64,000 nucleotides of DNA from Methanomassiliicoccus sp. (lineage in GTDB: Archaea; Thermoplasmatota; Thermoplasmata; Methanomassiliicoccales; Methanomassiliicoccaceae): positions 1 through 64,000 of the forward strand of contig JAWQJJ010000003.1 of assembly GCA_033485155.1 (NCBI GenBank), written 5' to 3'. The notes beneath the pieces are model-generated. The model was given only the letters and a program-made list of their open reading frames with translations. It was not told the DNA's origin and ran no database searches. Below are positions 26,301 to 62,746 of the stretch, in pieces. The translations under genes and the position numbers were made by a program. Each line of letters starts with the position of its first letter. Within the stretch, counting starts at the first letter, position 1.

Positions 26301-27659
26301 ATGCACATACCAAGGTTCGTCATCGCGGGGGAGCGGAGCGGGGTCGGCAAGTCGACCATTACTGTAGGCATTCTCATGGCGCTGCGGGCCCGGGGCCTGG
26401 AGCCTCAGCCGTTCAAGACCGGGCCGGACTTCCTGGACCCCATGCACCACAGCGCCGTGCTGGGCAAGCCGTCCCATAACCTCGATACCTGGATGTTTCG
26501 GGAGATGGTCGTCCCGACCTTCGTCCGCGGCTCCAAGGGCTCGAACATCGCGGTGATCGAGGGAGTCATGGGCCTCTATGATGGCCTGGACGGCCGTTCG
26601 GAGGAGGGGTCGACGTCTCACCTGGCCAAGGTCCTCAAGGCGCCCGTGGTGCTGGTCATCGACGCCTCCTCCTCATCGCGATCGGCCGGGGCGGTGGCCC
26701 TGGGCTTCAAGGACTACGATCCGGAGGTCAACATCGCCGGGGTGATCTTCAACAATGTCGGCAGCGAGTACCACCTAGAGATGCTCCGCGACTCCCTGCG
26801 GGGGATGGAGTGCCTGGGCGGGGTGCCGTCGGAAGCGGCGGTGGAGCTTAAGTCCCGCCATCTCGGCCTAGTGCCCGCCGGAGAGGACCTGGACGTAGCG
26901 AGGTACGCGCGCATCCAGGCGTTGGTCGAGGAGCACATCGATCTCGACCGGATCGTCGAGCTGGCCAACGCGGCACCGGACATCGGGCCGCAGCGGGAGC
27001 TCAGCGCGGCCCGCAAGAAGCGTCCGCGGACGAGGATCGGCCTGGCATGGGACGAAGCGTTCAACTTCTACTATGAGGGCAACCTTGACATCCTGAGGTC
27101 CCTGGGGGCCGAAGTGGTGCGGTTTTCCCCGATTCGCGACCCCCTGCCAGAGGTCGATGGGTTGTACTTCGGGGGCGGTTATCCCGAGCTATTCGCCCAT
27201 CAGCTGGAATCGAACACCGGACTTCGGGAACAGGTACGAAGAGCGTCCGGAGAGGGGATGCCTATCTATGCCGAGTGCGGCGGGATGATGTATGCCTGCG
27301 ACGCGGTGAGGGACATGAACGGCCGGCGGATGAAGATGACCGGCATCTTCGATGCTGACGTGGAGATGACCGATCGCTTGCAGGCCATCGGCTACATCGA
27401 GATGGAGGCTAAGCGGGATAATATGATGTCTCTCCAGGGCTGGAGCACCAGGGGTCACGAGTTCCACTACTCACGGGTTTGCTGCACCGGCAACGAGGAG
27501 TTTGCCTACGATATGAAACGAGGTAAGGGAATGATGGACGGCATGGACGGTCTGCTCGCCCACAATACTCTGGCTTCATATGCCCACCTCCATTTCGCCT
27601 CCTGCCCGGAATTCGCCCGGCGGTTCGTGGATAGCTGCATCTACTCCCGGAGGCGGTAG
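26301..27659 (+). CDS. cbiA: Cobyrinate (or Ni-sirohydrochlorin) a,c-diamide synthase, CbiA/CfbB family
   Basis: A 452-residue enzyme with an N-terminal dethiobiotin-synthetase-like ATPase domain (P-loop GERSGVGKST, then KTGPDFLDPMHHSAV) and a C-terminal class I glutamine amidotransferase domain (YAECGGMMYACDAV with the nucleophile Cys; SYAHLHFAS with the His). It amidates the a and c acetate side chains. CbiA (corrin) and CfbB (coenzyme F430) are homologous and cannot be separated by eye; the cobalt-uptake and CbiP neighbours favour corrin. A GGTGAGAGA ribosome-binding site precedes the ATG. Confidence 0.9.
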   Translation: MHIPRFVIAGERSGVGKSTITVGILMALRARGLEPQPFKTGPDFLDPMHHSAVLGKPSHNLDTWMFREMVVPTFVRGSKGSNIAVIEGVMGLYDGLDGRSEEGSTSHLAKVLKAPVVLVIDASSSSRSAGAVALGFKDYDPEVNIAGVIFNNVGSEYHLEMLRDSLRGMECLGGVPSEAAVELKSRHLGLVPAGEDLDVARYARIQALVEEHIDLDRIVELANAAPDIGPQRELSAARKKRPRTRIGLAWDEAFNFYYEGNLDILRSLGAEVVRFSPIRDPLPEVDGLYFGGGYPELFAHQLESNTGLREQVRRASGEGMPIYAECGGMMYACDAVRDMNGRRMKMTGIFDADVEMTDRLQAIGYIEMEAKRDNMMSLQGWSTRGHEFHYSRVCCTGNEEFAYDMKRGKGMMDGMDGLLAHNTLASYAHLHFASCPEFARRFVDSCIYSRRR

Positions 27660-27660
27660 C

Positions 27661-29460
27661 ACGGACGAGTACTGGTCGAAGGTGGAGGCCGAGCTCAGAG
27701 ATCTTCGGGCGGGGCCCAACCTGGAGTGTCCGTATTACCATTGTCACTATGAAGGTCAGGACTGCTCCCTGTGCTTCTGCCCCCTGTATCCCTGCCTTGA
27801 TCCCAGGCTCGGAAATATGGTGCCGGCCAGGAAAGGGGGAGAGGTATGGAGCTGCGAGAATTGCTATTGGACGCACCGCTCCGACGTGGCTTCGATGATC
27901 GCGGCGCGAATCCCGCCCTCGCCAATCCCACCCCCTCGCGAGTTCCTCGACGGAATTAAGGCCGAAGTGGAGGCCGTGCACCCGGTCTCCGCCATGCCCC
28001 TCATGGTGCTGGGCGCCACCTCGGGCGCGGGTAAATCGCTGATCACTGCAGCGCTGTGCCGCCTGTTCTCGGACATGGGCTATAACGTATCGCCCTTCAA
28101 GTCCCAAAACATGTCGCTGAATTCCATGGTCACCCCCTCGGGGGGCGAGATCTCCAGGGCGCAAGCCCTGCAGGCCGTGGCTGCGCGCACCGAACCGGAC
28201 AGCCGCATGAACCCCATTCTCCTGAAGCCGAAGCAGGATGATGTCTCGCAAGTCATCATCGACGGCCGGCCGTACCGCGACATGGACGTCCCGACCTACT
28301 ATGATGAGTTCACCATGGGCGAGGGCATGGCCGTCGTCAAGCGGGCCTGGGAGTTCCTCCGCCGCACCCGCGATGTCGTGGTGATCGAGGGTGCCGGCTC
28401 CCCGGCTGAGATCAACATCGCCGCCCGGGAGATCGCCAATATGCGGACCGCGGAGATCGCCGGTGCGCCTTGCGTCCTAGTCGTCAACATGGAGTGGGGT
28501 GGCGCCTTCGCCTACGCCTATGGCACCATTATGCTCCTGCCCCCTGAACAACGGAGCATGTTCAAGGGAATCATCCTCAACAACATGCACGGCGATCCGA
28601 CCTGCCTGAAGGAAGGGATCGAGGAGCTGGAGGCCCGTCTCGGCATCCCGGTGCTGGGAGTGGTCCCGCATGTCGATCACCTGCTTCCGGACGAGGACTC
28701 CCAGGACCTGGCCAAGGAGAAGGGGGCAGGTGATCTGAAGGTCGGGGTGATCATGCTTCCCCGCATATCCAACTTCACCGACCTCGACGCCCTCGCTCTC
28801 GAAGGAGTCAAGGTCGTCTACGTGAAAGACCCCCGCTCTCTCGAGGGAGTGAGCGCGGTCATCATCCCGGGGACCAAGAACACCGTTGCCGATCTGAAAT
28901 GGCTCAGGGAGCGCGGGTTGTTCGATGCCATAAGGATGATGCGCGGCAAGGTGCCTATCCTGGGCATCTGCGGCGGCTATCAGATGTTGGGTCGGGAGGT
29001 CATCGACCTAAATGGAGTGGAAGGCGATGTCGGCGCCATCTGGGAAGGCCTCGGCCTCCTGGACATCTCGACGCGGTTCGAAGCCTACGAGAAGCGCACC
29101 ATCCAGGTCAGCGGCAGGCTGGTATCTGGAGAGGGTGATGTCAGGGGGTATGAGATCCACATGGGCATGTCCGAGAGCCGGGAGGAGCCCCTGTTCATCC
29201 TGGACGAGGATGGCCGCAAAAAGGACGAGGGCTCGGTGTCCAAGGACGGCATGGTCATGGGCTCGTATGTGCACGGGCTGTTCGATCTCCCGGCCTTCCG
29301 GCAGTTCTTCCTCTCCAAGGTGCCATTGTCGAGGCCAAGGACGGCAACGCAGGACTACGACCGCTCAGTGAACGAGGGCCTGGACGCGGTGGCCGCGGTG
29401 GTCGGTTCTCATCTTGACATGGGCCGCCTGGTCGAGATTTTAAAGGAGGGGCTGAATTGA
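27661..29460 (+). CDS. cbiP: Cobyric acid synthase CbiP with N-terminal Cys-rich zinc domain
   Basis: About 599 residues. Residues 10-65 form a COG2158-type cysteine-rich small domain (ECPYYHCHYEGQDC, CFCPLYPC, WSCENCYWTH). CbiP follows: P-loop GATSGAGKS near 117-125, FKSQNMSLNS, MNPILLKPK, amidotransferase nucleophile Cys437 in GICGGYQ and His538 in VHGLFD. It amidates side chains b, d, e and g. The start is ambiguous. A GGAGG sequence sits seven bases before an in-frame ACG at 27661, and family-like residues begin there (DEYWSKVE). GTG at 27682 is the first conventional start that does not overlap cbiA. An ATG at 27580 would encode a shadow of cbiA. Confidence 0.88.
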   Translation, partial: TDEYWSKVEAELRDLRAGPNLECPYYHCHYEGQDCSLCFCPLYPCLDPRLGNMVPARKGGEVWSCENCYWTHRSDVASMIAARIPPSPIPPPREFLDGIKAEVEAVHPVSAMPLMVLGATSGAGKSLITAALCRLFSDMGYNVSPFKSQNMSLNSMVTPSGGEISRAQALQAVAARTEPDSRMNPILLKPKQDDVSQVIIDGRPYRDMDVPTYYDEFTMGEGMAVVKRAWEFLRRTRDVVVIEGAGSPAEINIAAREIANMRTAEIAGAPCVLVVNMEWGGAFAYAYGTIMLLPPEQRSMFKGIILNNMHGDPTCLKEGIEELEARLGIPVLGVVPHVDHLLPDEDSQDLAKEKGAGDLKVGVIMLPRISNFTDLDALALEGVKVVYVKDPRSLEGVSAVIIPGTKNTVADLKWLRERGLFDAIRMMRGKVPILGICGGYQMLGREVIDLNGVEGDVGAIWEGLGLLDISTRFEAYEKRTIQVSGRLVSGEGDVRGYEIHMGMSESREEPLFILDEDGRKKDEGSVSKDGMVMGSYVHGLFDLPAFRQFFLSKVPLSRPRTATQDYDRSVNEGLDAVAAVVGSHLDMGRLVEILKEGLN

Positions 29461-30302
29461 GCAGCATCATGGTACAGGGAACCTCGTCGGGGGCTGGGAA
29501 AACGACGGTAGCCGCCCTGCTGTGCCGCCACTTCGCCGGACGGGGGTTCAAGGTTGCCCCGTTCAAGGCCAGCAATCTTTCGCTCAACTCCTTCGTCACC
29601 GCTCAGGGGGAGGAGATCGGGGTTTCTCAGGCCTACCAGGCCTGGGCCTGCGGCCGGGAGCCGGAAGGATGCATGAACCCGGTGCTGCTGAAGCCGAAGG
29701 GCAACGGCAGCTGCCAGCTCATCCTCTCCGGCCGGCCGTATGCCGACCTGGCAAGAGGGGGGCGGGAGATGGATCGCGCGGTCCTCAGGAGCGCGGTGAA
29801 GGAGTCGTTCCAACGGTTGGCGGAGGCGAACGACGTGGTGGTGATCGAAGGCTCGGGCTCCCCGGCGGAGATAAACCTCCGGCGCGATGATATCGCCAAC
29901 ATGGCCACCGCCGAGATGGCCGGTTCCCCGGTCGTGCTGGTCGGGGACATCGAGCGAGGCGGTGTGTTCGCCGGTCTGTACGGCACCTATGCGCTCCTGG
30001 AGGAAAGGCATCGCCGGCTGGTGAAGGCGTTTCTCATCAACCGCTTCCGGGGGGATGAGAGCATCCTCCAGAGCGGCATAGACCGAATGGAGGAATTACT
30101 AGGCGTGCCATCGATTGGGGTTCTCCCCTTCGCCGACCTCAAGTTCCCCGCCGAGGACAGCCTTGACATGAACCGGGAACAGGGCACCGGAGTAAGGGGA
30201 CGCGATATGAGAAAGGGGTGGTTGGACAATCTGGACGAGCTGTACGCCATGTCCGTCAAGCACCTGGATTACGCGACGATGGAGAAAATCGCTTTTTCAT
30301 GA
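29457..30302 (+). CDS. CbiP-like ATPase domain protein lacking the amidotransferase half
   Basis: A 281-residue paralogue of the N-terminal half of CbiP: P-loop GTSSGAGKT, FKASNLSLNS, MNPVLLKPKGNG, EGSGSPAEINL, GDIERGGVFA and NRFRGDESIL are all conserved. It stops after the FPAEDSLDM region, about where the glutamine amidotransferase domain would begin. No frameshift is visible, and its last 30 residues look like a normal C-terminus. A TTG start at 29457 overlaps the cbiP stop and has GGAGG seven bases upstream. It may borrow ammonia from another subunit or amidate a different corrinoid; both are inference. Confidence 0.85.
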   Translation: MSSIMVQGTSSGAGKTTVAALLCRHFAGRGFKVAPFKASNLSLNSFVTAQGEEIGVSQAYQAWACGREPEGCMNPVLLKPKGNGSCQLILSGRPYADLARGGREMDRAVLRSAVKESFQRLAEANDVVVIEGSGSPAEINLRRDDIANMATAEMAGSPVVLVGDIERGGVFAGLYGTYALLEERHRRLVKAFLINRFRGDESILQSGIDRMEELLGVPSIGVLPFADLKFPAEDSLDMNREQGTGVRGRDMRKGWLDNLDELYAMSVKHLDYATMEKIAFS

Positions 30303-40044: not shown

Positions 40045-40254
40045 TCATGGTGCTGCCCCTCCCGCATATTTTACAGTGAATCGATTCGATTCTTCTCCGG
40101 CTGCCTCGCCGACGATATCGCCCGCCTCGTCAAGAACGCAATCAGACGCTCTGACATAATACCGTCCGCAGCTTGGGCATCGAGCTATACGCCCATACTC
40201 TCGGCCTTGGAGCCATGAAATGATCTCCTGGCAGCGGCGGCATTCGAACGCCAT
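40045..40254 (-). CDS. Short zinc-ribbon protein, half-length member of a local family
   Basis: A 69-residue protein. Its N-terminal 40 residues (ECRRCQEIISWLQGREYGR-ARCPSCGRYYV) align with the intact 106-residue protein at 54084-54404 (ECYRCQEILAWLEKRERGR). It lacks the second CPSC...CPSC ribbon; the last 20 residues are unrelated. One zinc site (CxxC-CxxC) should remain. Function unknown. Confidence 0.6.
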   Translation of the reverse strand: MAFECRRCQEIISWLQGREYGRIARCPSCGRYYVRASDCVLDEAGDIVGEAAGEESNRFTVKYAGGAAP

Positions 40255-40314
40255 ATGCGATGCTCAAGAACGGGAGAGCATAAAGACGTGCTGATGCCCG
40301 GCTGTCACTGAGAA

Positions 40315-50037: not shown

Positions 50038-50109
50038 ATTATCTTTCTCTCAATTAAAGAGTTTGTATAATTGTATTTTGACGTTCTGACTTTTTTAATA
50101 AGGGGTTTT

Positions 50110-50215
50110 CCTCCTCGCCCTTGCGGTTCGCGACAACGGCACCACAAGCAGGGCACCTAAATAGGAAGCAATTGCCTCAAGGGATGCGGCATCCTTCATG
50201 GTGCCACGGATCCGC
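50110..50215 (-). pseudogene. Remnant of a zinc-ribbon gene (C-terminal ribbon)
   Basis: Reads NCFLFRCPACGAVVANRKGEE on the minus strand, matching the end of the copies at 52456 and 54084, but a TGA and a frameshift lie just upstream and no N-terminal half follows. Confidence 0.6.
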
Positions 50216-51189: not shown

Positions 51190-51624
51190 ATCTTGTTCCC
51201 CCCATAATTTAGTTCCAGAGATTATTGTCATTATCAAAAATAAAGCTATGGAAATAACGGGGCTCGATATACGGCGCCCTACGCACGCCGAGTTGCCATT
51301 GTTCCTTGATAATGTGTAGCTAACGGTTATGAATCGGCGGGGAAATCCTCTGCTTATAGGAGCCCTTGTACGGTAAACAATACCATGAGGGTCACACCAC
51401 CTCCATGGGGGCTACCTATCGCTTTTTACGCTTCGCCCTTTCGGTTCGCGACAATTACTGGTAAAAAGATTTTAATGCACCAAATATGATACACAGCTGG
51501 GGAAGGTCCTATTGAGTGGAATCTCTCGGGGAAGGGAGATTTCTCTTGCATGATGGACAGCTTAGATCGAACTAGCGAAAGCTAGACGTCTTGCCTCATT
51601 TGACCGCCCATAGGAGGTTAGCAA
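51190..51624. other. Intergenic region with a short zinc-ribbon gene remnant
   Basis: Bases 51430-51454 (minus) match the last codons of the zinc-ribbon family (IVANRKGEA). Otherwise I see promoter-like A/T runs for the two flanking genes and nothing else. Confidence 0.4.
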
Positions 51625-52347
51625 ATGCTAAGAAAAGAAATGGAAGAAGGAGCGAAAGCTAGGACTACTAAAGTCCTCCTCGGCACTGTGAGCGCGCTGG
51701 TTGTAACGATGTTCGTGTTGAACTTCGTAATCACCCCTGTCTCTGCGAATGTAGACTATGCTTGGAACCCGGATGACTCGAGATATGATTTCTCGTCCTT
51801 CTCAAACTGGGATGTTCAAAGCGGCCAATATCGATACACCATAACTCCAACGCCGGATGCAAGTACTGGTGTCGTTCATATGAATCATGAGGCAAATGCA
51901 AAATTGGGTGCCAGTGGAGCAATCTGCGGGACTGCTGGTTTCGTTACTCCATCGAACGAACATTACTTCGCATCGAGCACGGGCACGATGACATTAAAGG
52001 CCGTCTGGCGCATTTACGACAATGAACACTTTAACGGTGTTGCCACCTACAAGCACATATCTCAGAAGATATTTTGCAACATACACGACATAACTGCCGG
52101 CACTTGGTATTATTCGTCAAACCCTACAGCATACACCGTGTCTGAACACACAAGCGGCAGTAACTGGTTGGTCGATGGCACCTACACTTGGCAGAACCCT
52201 GTGCCCATTACAGCCAACCATGAATACGAGATCAAATCCTGGATTAGTGTGTACTGCGAGGGAACAAGTGCCGTAAATGTGATTGCTGAAATTGAGATGA
52301 GCGGCTCCTACTATGCAGATCTGAACTATGTTGGCCTGTATAACTAA
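51625..52347 (+). CDS. Secreted protein of unknown function (B)
   Basis: A 240-residue protein with a signal peptide: basic n-region (MEEGAKARTTK), hydrophobic core (LLGTVSALVVTMFVLNFVI) and cleavage near PVSAN. The mature part is rich in aromatic residues and Ser/Thr and looks all-beta, with a TYTWQNPVPITANHEYEI element similar to secreted protein A. A GGAGG ribosome-binding site is eight bases before the ATG. Strong terminator downstream. Family unknown; probably cell-surface or released. Confidence 0.7.
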   Translation: MLRKEMEEGAKARTTKVLLGTVSALVVTMFVLNFVITPVSANVDYAWNPDDSRYDFSSFSNWDVQSGQYRYTITPTPDASTGVVHMNHEANAKLGASGAICGTAGFVTPSNEHYFASSTGTMTLKAVWRIYDNEHFNGVATYKHISQKIFCNIHDITAGTWYYSSNPTAYTVSEHTSGSNWLVDGTYTWQNPVPITANHEYEIKSWISVYCEGTSAVNVIAEIEMSGSYYADLNYVGLYN

Positions 52348-52455: not shown

Positions 52456-52767
52456 TCACTCCTCGCCCTTCCTGTTCGCGACAGCAGCACCACACTTCGG
52501 GCACCGGTGGGGGAAGCAATCATCCGTCCGGTTCACGGTCGATCTCATGGGGCCGGCCCAATTGCACTGTGTGCAATAAGCCGGCCGGGCGCTCTCCTGC
52601 CATCGCTCGTTGACCGGGAAGCCAACCCAATGCCTTCCTCGAACATAGTGACGGCCGCAGAAGGGGCACCTTGCCTACTGACCTCGGTCCTCGAGCTGCA
52701 GCTGCGCGATGATCGTTTGGCACTGATGGCAGGAAGAAGTAATGGGGGCGGCATCCATTTCTGACAT
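52456..52767 (-). CDS. Zinc-ribbon protein with in-frame UAG (pyrrolysine or nonsense)
   Basis: The frame from ATG 52767 to TGA at 52456 is 104 codons, interrupted only by TAG at codon 31 (52675-52677). It aligns along its length with the intact paralogue at 54084: C-x2-C-Q...II-A in the first helix, then RCPFCGRHYVRGRHWV (paralogue RCPICGLSYVKGRHWV), CTQCNWAGPM, NRTDDCFPHRCPKCG and a final ANRKGEE. UAG falls where the paralogue has His just before the first CPxC. All eight Cys of the ribbons are kept and there is no frameshift. Pyrrolysine insertion is possible in Methanomassiliicoccales; TAG also serves as an ordinary stop here, so simple loss is equally possible. Confidence 0.55.
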
Positions 52768-52853: not shown

Positions 52854-53351
52854 TTAAAGGCTCTTATCGTCCCGCAAGCCATGCTGCCTTTTCAATCCAG
52901 TTTCAAATATTATTGTAACCATCCTCAAGTTACCGATAATGCGTTGGATAAACAGATACCAGTGATTTTTTACGCTCCTTGGGTCGCGAAAATAATAAAA
53001 TGGATTCGTTCCAGGCGGATCTATATTTCCATATTGGTCTTTCAAACCATTAAGATCTATCGCAAGGAATCCATTTCCTTTCTGAATGCTCCGCTCGATT
53101 TCATACCTGACCCAGTCCCGAGAATATGTTTCCTTACCGAATAACACAACGGTGACGGATGTACCATCAAGCTGATTATTAATCCAACGTCTAATTGCAT
53201 CGTCACCTGATTTTTTCACCGCCTCCCAAGATGCTGCATCCATATATCCGGCTTCATCAATCGTCGGTTTGGTGACCCATGAATTTCGAATTTGACATAC
53301 TCTCCATATGTCGCGCTCAAAATGGAAGCTAAAGAATGCTTTCCTTGCCAT
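52854..53351 (-). CDS. ThsB-like TIR (DUF1863/MTH538) protein
   Basis: A 165-residue TIR-like protein. It begins MARKAFFSFHFERDIWRVCQIRNSW, the conserved strand A/helix A of the MTH538-type TIR domain found in ThsB of the Thoeris anti-phage system. Other conserved parts are DAASWEAVKKSGDDAIRRWI, LDGTSVTVVLFGKETYSRDWVRYEIERSI and GFLAIDLNGLKD. In Thoeris, ThsB senses infection and makes a cyclic ADP-ribose signal for ThsA. No ThsA gene is nearby. The ATG at 53351 follows GGTGGG; a TATA-like TTTTTATC is at about 53384-53391. A/T-rich relative to core genes, suggesting transfer. Confidence 0.8.
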   Translation of the reverse strand: MARKAFFSFHFERDIWRVCQIRNSWVTKPTIDEAGYMDAASWEAVKKSGDDAIRRWINNQLDGTSVTVVLFGKETYSRDWVRYEIERSIQKGNGFLAIDLNGLKDQYGNIDPPGTNPFYYFRDPRSVKNHWYLFIQRIIGNLRMVTIIFETGLKRQHGLRDDKSL

Positions 53352-53651
53352 ACTACCCACCTATTAAACGTGAGTTATTCCAACGATAAAAATGACTGTT
53401 CTGGTTCTCTACGCCAGTAACAGGGCCGTAAGGATGAATGCCGTTCGTCCGGTCGCGACGGTCAGGAGACACGATAAGTCCCTCGGGTAACCTGTCAGGG
53501 AGCCCTTAGGTCCTGATGACGACCTTGAGGGCATGATGGTCGGTGCAGGCCATGGCCATGATATTCGTCCGGATGTCGACCGCCATAGTCATTCCAGAGG
53601 ACGCATCGCCACCGTTCTCTCGTTGCCTGGACCAGCCTTGCGCCCATCCTC
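53352..53651. other. Intergenic region, nothing supported
   Basis: About 300 bases between the TIR gene and a small zinc-ribbon gene. I see the TIR promoter and no convincing frame or structure. Confidence 0.4.
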
Positions 53652-54083: not shown

Positions 54084-54404
54084 TTACAACGATTGGAGGG
54101 ATAATTGCTCCTCAGCCTTCCGGTGGGCGACGATGCTACCGCAGGAAGGGCAGCGGAAGGGGAAGCAGTTGCCCTCCACGAATATCGCCTGCTTCATCAT
54201 GCCCTCCCAACCGCACGACGGGCAGTGAGCCACCTGGTCGCTCATCTGCCAGTCCTCGTTCATGAGGTTGCCCTCCTCATCCAGGACCCAGTGCCGTCCC
54301 TTGACATAGGACAGGCCGCAGATGGGGCACCTGATGTGCCGGCCTCGCTCTCGCTTCTCCAGCCATGCGAGAATCTCTTGGCACCTATAGCATTCCGCTG
54401 CCAT
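54084..54404 (-). CDS. Zinc-ribbon protein, intact member of the local family
   Basis: A 106-residue protein with four CxxC pairs: CYRCQEI, RCPICGLSYV, HCPSCGWEGM and RCPSCGSIVAHRK, forming two zinc ribbons. A middle segment (HWVLDEEGNLMNEDWQ) links them. Half-length, decayed or UAG-containing relatives lie at 40045, 50110, 51430 and 52456. Function unknown; zinc ribbons of this kind usually bind nucleic acid or proteins. No ribosome-binding site is evident. Confidence 0.75.
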   Translation of the reverse strand: MAAECYRCQEILAWLEKRERGRHIRCPICGLSYVKGRHWVLDEEGNLMNEDWQMSDQVAHCPSCGWEGMMKQAIFVEGNCFPFRCPSCGSIVAHRKAEEQLSLQSL

Positions 54405-59825: not shown

Positions 59826-60275
59826 ATGGACAAGGTGACCCGCATCGGGATATCTCTCGAACCGGAGCTGCTCAAGGAATTCGATGACCTGGTAACAGGG
59901 AAGGGGTACACCAACCGTTCGGAGGCGATCAGGGACATCATCCGTTTCGCCCTCACCGACGAGCGGTGGAAGGATAGCGAGGCCGACGTCGTGGGGACCA
60001 TTACCATCGTCTACGATCATGGCAAGGGTACGGTCCAGGACCGCCTCATGGAGATCCAGCACGGCCACCATGCCAACATCGCCAGCACCATCCACATCCA
60101 TCTGAGCACCGAGCAATGCCTGGAGGTGCTCATTGTGTGGGGAAAGGTCAAGGAGGTGCAGCACCTCGCGGACGAGGTGATCGCGGTCAAGGGGGTCAAC
60201 TTCGGCAAGCTGACCATGACCTCAGGGTCCATCGACCGTGAGCACCATGAGGTCTGCCATCCTCACCACCACTAG
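59826..60275 (+). CDS. nikR: NikR, nickel-responsive regulator
   Basis: A 149-residue ribbon-helix-helix regulator. The N-terminal DNA-binding part is RIGISLEPELLKEFDDLV...NRSEAIRDIIR; the ACT-type nickel domain has ligands His79, His90, His92 and Cys98 in the exact spacing of E. coli NikR (76, 87, 89, 95). A tail ending HEVCHPHHH adds further metal-binding residues. It probably represses nickel uptake when nickel is plentiful. Leaderless, using the TATA element at 59791-59801. Confidence 0.94.
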   Translation: MDKVTRIGISLEPELLKEFDDLVTGKGYTNRSEAIRDIIRFALTDERWKDSEADVVGTITIVYDHGKGTVQDRLMEIQHGHHANIASTIHIHLSTEQCLEVLIVWGKVKEVQHLADEVIAVKGVNFGKLTMTSGSIDREHHEVCHPHHH

Positions 60276-60346
60276 GCCAGCGTAGCCGACCATTTTGCCC
60301 CCGGTAGCCAATGGGCATATTTTTTATACTCTGTGCCCTTTGGTCG

Positions 60347-62746
60347 ATGGCCATGAGCAGGCTCATCATTTCCGAGAAGAGCGATGCCGCGGCGAGGATC
60401 GCGACGATCCTGTCCAGGGGCGGCTCGAAGAGGACCAGCGTGAACAAGGTGCCGGTCTTCCAGTTCGAAGATGAGAGCGGGCCTGTTCACGTCATAGGGC
60501 TGCGGGGGCACATCATCGAGCTCGACTATCCCGCAGCATTGAACGACTGGCGAGGGGTGGCTCTCGGCGAGCTTATCAAGGCCGAACCGGAGAAGCGCAT
60601 CACCGCCCACAACATCGTGTCCACACTCCGCGACATCTCCAAGGACGTCAACGAGGTCGTCATCGCCACCGACTTTGACCGCGAAGGGGAGCTCATCGGT
60701 CTGGAAACGGCCAGATTGTTGGACCTCGACGGCAAGAAGGTCGGAAGGGCGCGGTTCAGCGCTTTCACCCGGCAGGAGATCGACACCGCCTTCGGTTCGC
60801 TGACCCTACCGGACGAGCAGCTCGCCGACTCCGCTGAATGCCGGCAGAAGATCGACCTGGCATGGGGCGCGGTTCTCACCCGGTTCATCTCCCTGGCCTC
60901 CAGCCAGGGAGGCAGCAACTTCCTTTCCGTCGGCCGGGTGCAAAGCCCGACCCTCGCCCTTGTGGTCGCCCGACACAAGGCCATCGAAGAGTTCGTGCCC
61001 AAGCCCTATTGGAACGTCAGCGCCCGGTTCGAGAAGGGGGCCGAGTTCAACGGCCATCATGTGAACAACCCCTTCCACGATGAGGCCAAGGCCTTGGAGG
61101 CGCTCACCGCCTGCAAGGGGCAGGAGAAGGGCAAGGTCACAAAGTATGAGCGGAACGAGAAGGACGAGTACCCGCTGCCGCCGTTCAACACCACCATGCT
61201 TCTGATGGAGGCGAACAAGCTGGGCTTCACCGCTGCCCGGGCTATGAAGATCGCCGAGGACCTCTACACCGCCGGCTACATCTCCTATCCCAGGACGGAC
61301 AACACCGTCTATCCGACCTCGTTAGGGCTCAGGCGCATCCTGGAAAAGCTGAAGGAGTCGGAGGACCTGAAGAAGGACGCCGAGGAGCTCCTGCAGCAGG
61401 AGCACATTCGGCCATCTAGGGGCAAGGTACAGACCACCGACCACCCTCCGATATATCCCACCGAGGCCGCCACCAGCAAGCAGCTCAAGGGAGAGAAGTG
61501 GGCCATCTATGAGCTGGTCGCCCGGAGGTTCATGGCCACCGTGGCCCCTCCGGCCAAGGCCCAGTTATCGAACGCCTCGTTGGACGTGAACGGGGAGGTC
61601 TTCGACTCTAAGGGCTACAAGCTCCTCTTCCCCGGGTGGAAGAAGTACTACCCATACTTCAAGGTCAACGAGATCGATCTCCCTGAGCTGGTCGTCGGCG
61701 AGGAGATCCTGCTCAAGGATGTGTCCTCGGACAAGAAGATGACCCAGCCTCCCGCTCGCTACTCCCAAGGCTCTCTGATCCAAGAGATGGAAAGGCTCGC
61801 GCTGGGCACCAAGTCGACGAGACACGACATTATCCAGAAGCTTTACGACCGGAAGTACGTGGAGGGCAACGATCTCATTCCGACCGCCAGCGGCGTGGCA
61901 GTGGCCGAGGCCCTCATCAAGCACGCCCAGATCGTCACCGATCCCAAGATGACCGCCCATCTGGAGCAGGACATGGACGACATCGCCAACGGCAAGACTA
62001 CTTTGGATGAGGTGGTCGAGGAATCGCAGGACATGCTGTCGGATATCCTGGAGACAATGGAGAATCACCGCCAGCAGATCGGCGAGGAGATTCGCAAGGC
62101 GATCGAGGAACAACACTACATGGGCAAGTGCCCGGACTGTGGTGCCGACCTCAAGGTCATCAGGGCCAAGTTCGGCAAGCCCTTTGTCGGCTGCTCCAAC
62201 TATCCCGAGTGCAAGCGCATCTATCAGTATCCGCCGTCCGCATTGGTGCAGCCGACCGGTGAAGTGTGCACGGTGTGCCGCTCCCCGATGGTCCGAGTGG
62301 TTCGCCGCGGGCAGCCGCCCCAGGTCCACTGCCTCGACCCGGCCTGCGAGAGCAACCGCGAGCGGACTACCGCAGGCTCCTGCCCCAAGTGCGGTAAGGA
62401 CCTCCGCGTCCTCTACTCGAGGGCCGGCAAGCGGTTCCTAGGATGCTCTGGCTATCCCGAGTGCAAGCAGACCTATCCCCTGCCCCAGTTCGGCAAGTTC
62501 TCCGCCACCGGCGAGAAGTGCGAGCAGTGCGGGGCGCCCATCCTCCAGATCTGGATGAGGGGACAGTCATGGAAGTCCTGCGCGGACATGGAGTGCCCCT
62601 CCAAGGGCAAGGACAAGAAGGAGAGCGCGAAAACAAAAGCCGCCCCCAAGAAGAAGGCGACGGCCAAGAAGACCACCGCCAAAAAGCCAGCGACCAAGAA
62701 AACGTCGAAGAAGGCTAGTGAAACTACCTCGCCATCGACCGAATAG
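60347..62746 (+). CDS. topA: DNA topoisomerase I (type IA) with zinc fingers and Lys-rich tail
   Basis: A 799-residue topoisomerase. TOPRIM domain: SRLIISEKSDAA and TDFDREGE (metal-binding acidic residues); catalytic Tyr in GYISYPRTDN; GRVQSPTL. C-terminal zinc fingers: CPDCGADL...CSNYPEC; CTVC..C; CPKCGKDL...CSGYPEC; CEQCGAP...C. A tail of about 45 residues is rich in Lys, Ala and Thr, like histone H1, and should bind DNA nonspecifically. ATGs at 60347 and 60353 both fit the TTTTTTATACT TATA box at about 60319-60330; leaderless. It ends at a T-run terminator. Confidence 0.95.
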   Translation: MAMSRLIISEKSDAAARIATILSRGGSKRTSVNKVPVFQFEDESGPVHVIGLRGHIIELDYPAALNDWRGVALGELIKAEPEKRITAHNIVSTLRDISKDVNEVVIATDFDREGELIGLETARLLDLDGKKVGRARFSAFTRQEIDTAFGSLTLPDEQLADSAECRQKIDLAWGAVLTRFISLASSQGGSNFLSVGRVQSPTLALVVARHKAIEEFVPKPYWNVSARFEKGAEFNGHHVNNPFHDEAKALEALTACKGQEKGKVTKYERNEKDEYPLPPFNTTMLLMEANKLGFTAARAMKIAEDLYTAGYISYPRTDNTVYPTSLGLRRILEKLKESEDLKKDAEELLQQEHIRPSRGKVQTTDHPPIYPTEAATSKQLKGEKWAIYELVARRFMATVAPPAKAQLSNASLDVNGEVFDSKGYKLLFPGWKKYYPYFKVNEIDLPELVVGEEILLKDVSSDKKMTQPPARYSQGSLIQEMERLALGTKSTRHDIIQKLYDRKYVEGNDLIPTASGVAVAEALIKHAQIVTDPKMTAHLEQDMDDIANGKTTLDEVVEESQDMLSDILETMENHRQQIGEEIRKAIEEQHYMGKCPDCGADLKVIRAKFGKPFVGCSNYPECKRIYQYPPSALVQPTGEVCTVCRSPMVRVVRRGQPPQVHCLDPACESNRERTTAGSCPKCGKDLRVLYSRAGKRFLGCSGYPECKQTYPLPQFGKFSATGEKCEQCGAPILQIWMRGQSWKSCADMECPSKGKDKKESAKTKAAPKKKATAKKTTAKKPATKKTSKKASETTSPSTE

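Follow-up and report, generated by a model that had tools for sequence, protein, structure and literature searches.

The window, a stretch of 64,000 nucleotides on contig C3 of a Methanomassiliicoccus sp. genome, carries on its minus strand a small double zinc-ribbon gene of 103 codons (52456–52767) interrupted by an amber codon. The reading frame extends from an ATG at 52767 to a TGA at 52456–52458, and its sole break is TAG codon 31 (52675–52677, minus strand), so the presence of this codon in an otherwise open frame, as noticed in the initial annotation, is real. Translated through the TAG, the gene encodes 103 residues, the 31st being O. A homologous frame is present on both sides of the TAG. 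The identity to an intact, divergent paralogue of 106 aa (54084–54404, minus strand) reaches 46% over 99 aa (pair E=4e-34), hence the frame of the interrupted gene is not due to chance. The two proteins do not align residue by residue, as had been supposed, since four codons following codon 48 are missing from the interrupted gene. All eight paired zinc-ligand cysteines are indeed kept (C13, C16, C34, C37, C65, C68, C89 and C92), and C84 is a ninth one. The TAG, described earlier as lying just before the first zinc knuckle, is located between the first CxxC motif (C13/C16) and the second (C34/C37); termination at this codon therefore gives a 30-aa peptide with one knuckle.

Search of Pfam and NCBIfam zinc-ribbon families gave no match over the curated cut-offs, generic zinc-ribbon matches being sub-threshold only. 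Only generic zinc-finger matches were obtained among solved structures, and no credible Rfam match was found near the gene. The region just upstream (52854–53360, minus strand) encodes a Thoeris ThsB-type TIR-like protein (PF08937, E=6.6e-24).

Two additional changes distinguish the interrupted gene from other copies of the family. According to the sequence comparison, ATT (52741–52743, minus strand) occupies the position of the ATG start of the other copies; in-frame ATGs are available 8 and 5 codons upstream of it, in sequence unshared with those copies. The four lost codons, which encode LDEA in the closest copies and are kept in the other copies, correspond to a 12-nt in-frame deletion with its junction at 52623/52624. 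Either change could be tolerated, yet both are more readily regarded as further damage than as harmless variation.

In this genome the family amounts to about a dozen dispersed copies and fragments, the interrupted gene being one of them. A family profile built from two rows, the interrupted gene and the paralogue at 54084–54404, finds 16 matches here, several of which are pieces of one copy. The same profile applied to 120 related genomes finds two copies in a congener (G003), one N-terminal fusion in genome G012 and otherwise weak matches only. Orthologues of the interrupted gene were not found in scans of public genome contigs and viral contigs. The fusion protein of G012 (L006:421–1803, minus strand; 460 aa) combines an N-terminal relative of the zinc-ribbon family with a C-terminal GmrSD_C domain (PF07510, E=1.6e-14), which may be taken as a hint, and only a hint, of a nucleic-acid role.

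Three copies in the genome are intact and divergent (C3:54084, C2:78177 and C13:10235), and all four copies closest to the interrupted gene are damaged. Three of the latter are frameshifted: C10:82056 by a 1-nt deletion, C6:172155 by a 1-nt insertion accompanied by the loss of one Cys, and C3:75150, which has also acquired a TGA and lost five Cys, by several frameshifts. The fourth, C3:115945, retains an open frame with one Cys lost and a Trp-to-Gly change. Further copies are fragments. In the window these include the N-terminal half of a copy whose homology stops mid-gene (40093–40272, minus strand) and a C-terminal remnant (50105–50179, minus strand) whose homology to the C3:75151 copy spans ~135 bp. 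The nonsense codons of the damaged copies are not all of one kind, C6:168795 having TAG and C3:75150 the TGA already mentioned.

These paralogues make it possible to determine the codon that preceded the TAG. GAG (Glu) stands at the codon-31 position in all four nearest copies, and the reconstructed parent also has GAG, with a posterior of 0.98 at the changed base. The change from GAG to TAG falls on the terminal branch of the interrupted copy, so that the parental sequence did not have this disabling lesion. The remaining members of the family show N, H, S or T at this residue, and none of the other copies compared has TAG there. The GAG of the sisters together with this variation indicates that one G>T step produced the TAG and that the position is unconstrained; the codon is neither kept in relatives nor placed at a conserved functional residue. 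A change of one base from an open codon, seen in a single assembly, could also be produced by a sequencing or assembly error. Such an error is quite improbable, given that the interrupted copy has other private changes (the ATT at the start position and the 12-nt deletion) and that no specific sign of an error is present.

The pattern of substitutions bears on the age of the lesion. The terminal branch of the interrupted copy has accumulated 10 silent changes against 5 replacements (25% silent expected under neutrality, P=7e-4), and after the TAG the same branch carries 7 silent changes and 1 replacement (P=4e-4) with no cysteine lost. The numbers on these branches are low, and they derive from a single, simple one-rate reconstruction on a tree with weak within-clade support (18–28%). 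The same measure is neutral-looking in three sisters (P of 0.37 for C3:115945, 0.11 for C6:172155 and 0.94 for C3:75150) and intermediate in C10:82056 (P of 0.026). A dN/dS near 1 after the UAG, proposed in the initial annotation as the mark of a pseudogene, is thus not what was found. The ratio of 7:1 suggests that the interrupted copy was under selection until recently; it excludes an old pseudogene and not a young one, since the silent changes could predate the mutation. Consequently, the lesion must be either young or leaky.

The replacement changes of this copy do not extend beyond codon 28 of the aligned region, and the part past the 12-nt deletion is free of them. This distribution would suit a gene that works as two separate pieces, a leader of 30 aa and a C-terminal ribbon made by re-initiation. 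However, the first in-frame ATG or GTG on the 3' side of the TAG is codon 74, within the last ribbon, so that re-initiation would not restore the ribbon pair, and such a layout is seen in no member of the family. The proposal is hardly credible.

Decoding of UAG as pyrrolysine is possible in this organism on machinery grounds. The initial annotation had named pylTSBCD as the genes to look for, and contig C8 carries contiguous tRNA-Pyl(CUA), pylS, pylB, pylC and pylD, all four proteins scoring above the NCBIfam cut-offs. The same contig contains a full-length gene of monomethylamine methyltransferase, mtmB (C8:104011–105360), with a single in-frame TAG. Together, the cluster and mtmB imply that reading of UAG as pyrrolysine is possible in principle.

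TAG is at the same time an ordinary terminator, as had been stated. It ends 57 of 260 ORFs sampled from the 64-kb window and fifteen 20-kb stretches (300 kb) of the genome, that is 22%, an approximate value because the genes were called simply by codon usage; among high-scoring ORFs of the sample the count is 33 of 144 (23%). The genome therefore does not show the low share of TAG stops by which tolerance of TAG as a sense codon would be accompanied. Stretches of 30 or more open codons beyond the stop are found after 26 of 57 TAG, 72 of 169 TGA and 13 of 34 TAA codons, without any excess for TAG, and the high-scoring stretches beyond TAG mostly overlap other genes. One TAG-joined frame (L055:12421–13317) was considered as a case of read-through and rejected, for it looks like two adjacent genes, the ATG start of the second following directly on the TAG.

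In the window, the domains of HypA, NikR and TopA are complete ahead of their TAG. Of the three genes previously listed as ending in TAG, this holds for topA (60311–62746) and nikR (59826–60275), while cbiA has to be removed from the list: the two CbiA-domain genes end in TGA. The latter are adjacent CobQ/CobB-like genes (27580–29460 and 29457–30302, plus strand), and the second matches in its nucleotide-binding part only, without a glutamine amidotransferase domain. TAG also naturally terminates two members of the zinc-ribbon family, C6:172155 in this genome and G003:C4:151755 in the sister genome.

Published values provide a scale for the use of TAG. It accounts for 11.3% of stops in M. luminyensis, where no Pyl proteins beyond methylamine methyltransferases are predicted, for 1.6% in Ca. 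Methanomethylophilus alvus, where 16 TAG-containing CDS are predicted, and for 4–5% in Methanosarcina (PMC4153887). The share of ~22% found here is twice that published for M. luminyensis, despite the complete Pyl system.

Neutral or tolerated read-through has to be weighed against this background. In this case tRNA-Pyl would decode UAG31 often enough to supply a working full-length zinc-ribbon protein, as for Thg1 (tRNA-His guanylyltransferase) of M. acetivorans, whose in-frame amber codon is presented as a neutral appearance of Pyl in the work of Heinemann et al. 2009 as cited in PMC4153887 and PMC2933860. Besides the complete pyl cluster and the full-length mtmB, such decoding is favoured by the tolerance of the Glu31 position to substitution, by the 7:1 ratio after the TAG, and by reporter experiments in M. 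acetivorans in which amber codons were read through at 20–30% without special context (PMC2933860). On the other hand, TAG is a frequent stop here, in contrast to 1.6% in the Pyl-tolerant Ca. M. alvus (PMC4153887); no other copy has TAG at codon 31; the start position is altered as well; and the RNA fold downstream of the TAG is unexceptional (z=-1.2), though such a fold is not required. Functional read-through of this gene is accordingly considered unlikely.

The resemblance to Thg1 consists in a lone in-frame TAG in the copy of one species, at a non-essential position, with relatives lacking it, in a Pyl-decoding archaeon. The two cases differ in that read-through of Thg1 was reported from experiment and the zinc-ribbon case is known from sequence alone; moreover, the zinc-ribbon gene has many paralogues, most of them broken, and TAG makes up 22% of stops versus 4–5% in Methanosarcina (PMC4153887). 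The 16 CDS of Ca. M. alvus are similar in being broken only by TAG and belong to the same methanogen order, as far as pyl and taxonomic evidence suggests. However, Ca. M. alvus has nearly abandoned TAG (1.6%), whereas the present genome, using it as an ordinary stop, is closer to M. luminyensis (11.3%).

In-frame TAG is shared with mtmB of the same genome. In the MtmB family this codon is family-defining, conserved and located in the active site, and none of these traits applies to the zinc-ribbon gene. A selected Pyl residue, or an amber switch making the protein dependent on the supply of pyrrolysine (methylamine growth), would be suggested only by the co-occurrence of pyl genes with an in-frame TAG. 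No relative has TAG at codon 31, the residue there is neither conserved nor a zinc ligand, and the interrupted gene on C3 is not close to the pyl cluster and mtmB on C8. Selected use of the codon is thus highly improbable.

The initial annotation had left three readings side by side: a Pyl-containing protein, a suppressible switch and a fresh nonsense mutation. The third is the best supported, and nothing indicates a switch or selection for the UAG and pyrrolysine incorporation. The interrupted gene is probably a young pseudogene, produced by a recent GAG-to-TAG nonsense mutation in a family of small double zinc-ribbon genes that is lineage-specific, dispersed and in decay. The mutation is favoured because the UAG is unconserved, TAG is a normal stop, the sisters are decaying and the start is changed too. 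After GAG was converted to TAG in one family member, translation would mostly stop at 30 residues, leaving half of one zinc ribbon; the pyrrolysine suppressor tRNA of the cell may let some full-length protein leak through, with pyrrolysine replacing glutamate. The gene resembles recent amber pseudogenes of decaying multicopy families: the nonsense change took one step, the frame is intact, other lesions are few, and the sisters have decayed further. Unlike ordinary amber pseudogenes, it resides in a host that naturally possesses an amber suppressor, which could allow some product to leak. Certain observations count against the nonsense mutation: the silent bias, which is unlike that of the decayed sisters, requires the mutation to be young, the deletion is in frame, and the upstream in-frame ATGs could supply a new start. 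A young mutation and continued function by read-through would both explain the silent bias, and these cannot be separated by sequence alone.

The 3' end of the gene shows a feature of its own. The final ~27 bp of the zinc-ribbon genes, (G)TCGCGAACCGNAAGGGCGAGGAGTAA (VANRKGEE-stop), recur alone. The gene-end copy of the interrupted gene (52456–52482, minus strand) is a direct repeat of an isolated copy (VANRKGEA-stop) at 51426–51452 (minus strand), on the left of which no gene sequence is present. When up to 3 mismatches are allowed, a 24-base pattern occurs at 17 places, compared with 0.35 expected by composition and 0 for the reversed control, although chance probably accounts for a few of the places with 3 mismatches. 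Seven of the 17 places are not at the end of a full or nearly full copy, and each of these lies downstream of a same-strand copy, at a distance of 0.4–2.6 kb. For five of them, no gene homology could be detected within the 24 bp on the left (C3:51429, C3:114449, C10:84953, C6:171238 and C7:14225); the other two, C3:50111 and C6:170159, are longer remnants rather than bare 27-bp repeats.

The sharp-edged direct repeats thus bound inserts of 0.4–2.6 kb, which hold orphan genes. The insert next to the interrupted gene contains an ORF of 240 aa (51625–52347, plus strand) with a hydrophobic N-terminal stretch and no relative in 60 related genomes. The C3:115945 gene abuts the flank that follows the displaced 27-bp copy in three other clusters, which looks as if DNA was inserted exactly at this point in those clusters. 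None of the 12 tyrosine-recombinase matches of the genome lies inside or beside the inserts, those nearest to any core copy being located at ~8.5 kb (C10:93498) and 11 kb (C6:69228). It is possible, though doubtful, that the gene-end ~27 bp serves as a recombination site taking precise one- or two-gene inserts, with cassette-like arrays formed behind the copies and the interrupted gene heading one of them. Site-specific insertion is treated as a lead only, because the repeat pattern and flanks were picked after the data had been seen.

A repeated, strongly folding intergenic element, which is part of the flank shared by these clusters, adjoins the isolated 27-bp repeat in the window (51327–51425, minus strand). 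Other copies are found at C6:170058–170160, C10:84980–85077, C3:115877–115945 and C7:165310–165397 (plus strand), the last without the 27-bp repeat. The element is ~75–100 nt long with a predicted three-way junction, and it adjoins the repeat at four places. Two-sided covariation was absent from the five copies, and no Rfam match was found for the copy in the window.

Where a Pyl-decoding archaeon still uses TAG for about one stop in five, finding the frame intact around such a codon does not count as evidence of a Pyl protein; the codon that an in-frame TAG has replaced can be learned from paralogues. The inserts bounded by repeats at the gene ends may be more interesting than the UAG. The interrupted gene itself is a natural amber reporter: its product, if found, would show the leakiness of UAG in this lineage.
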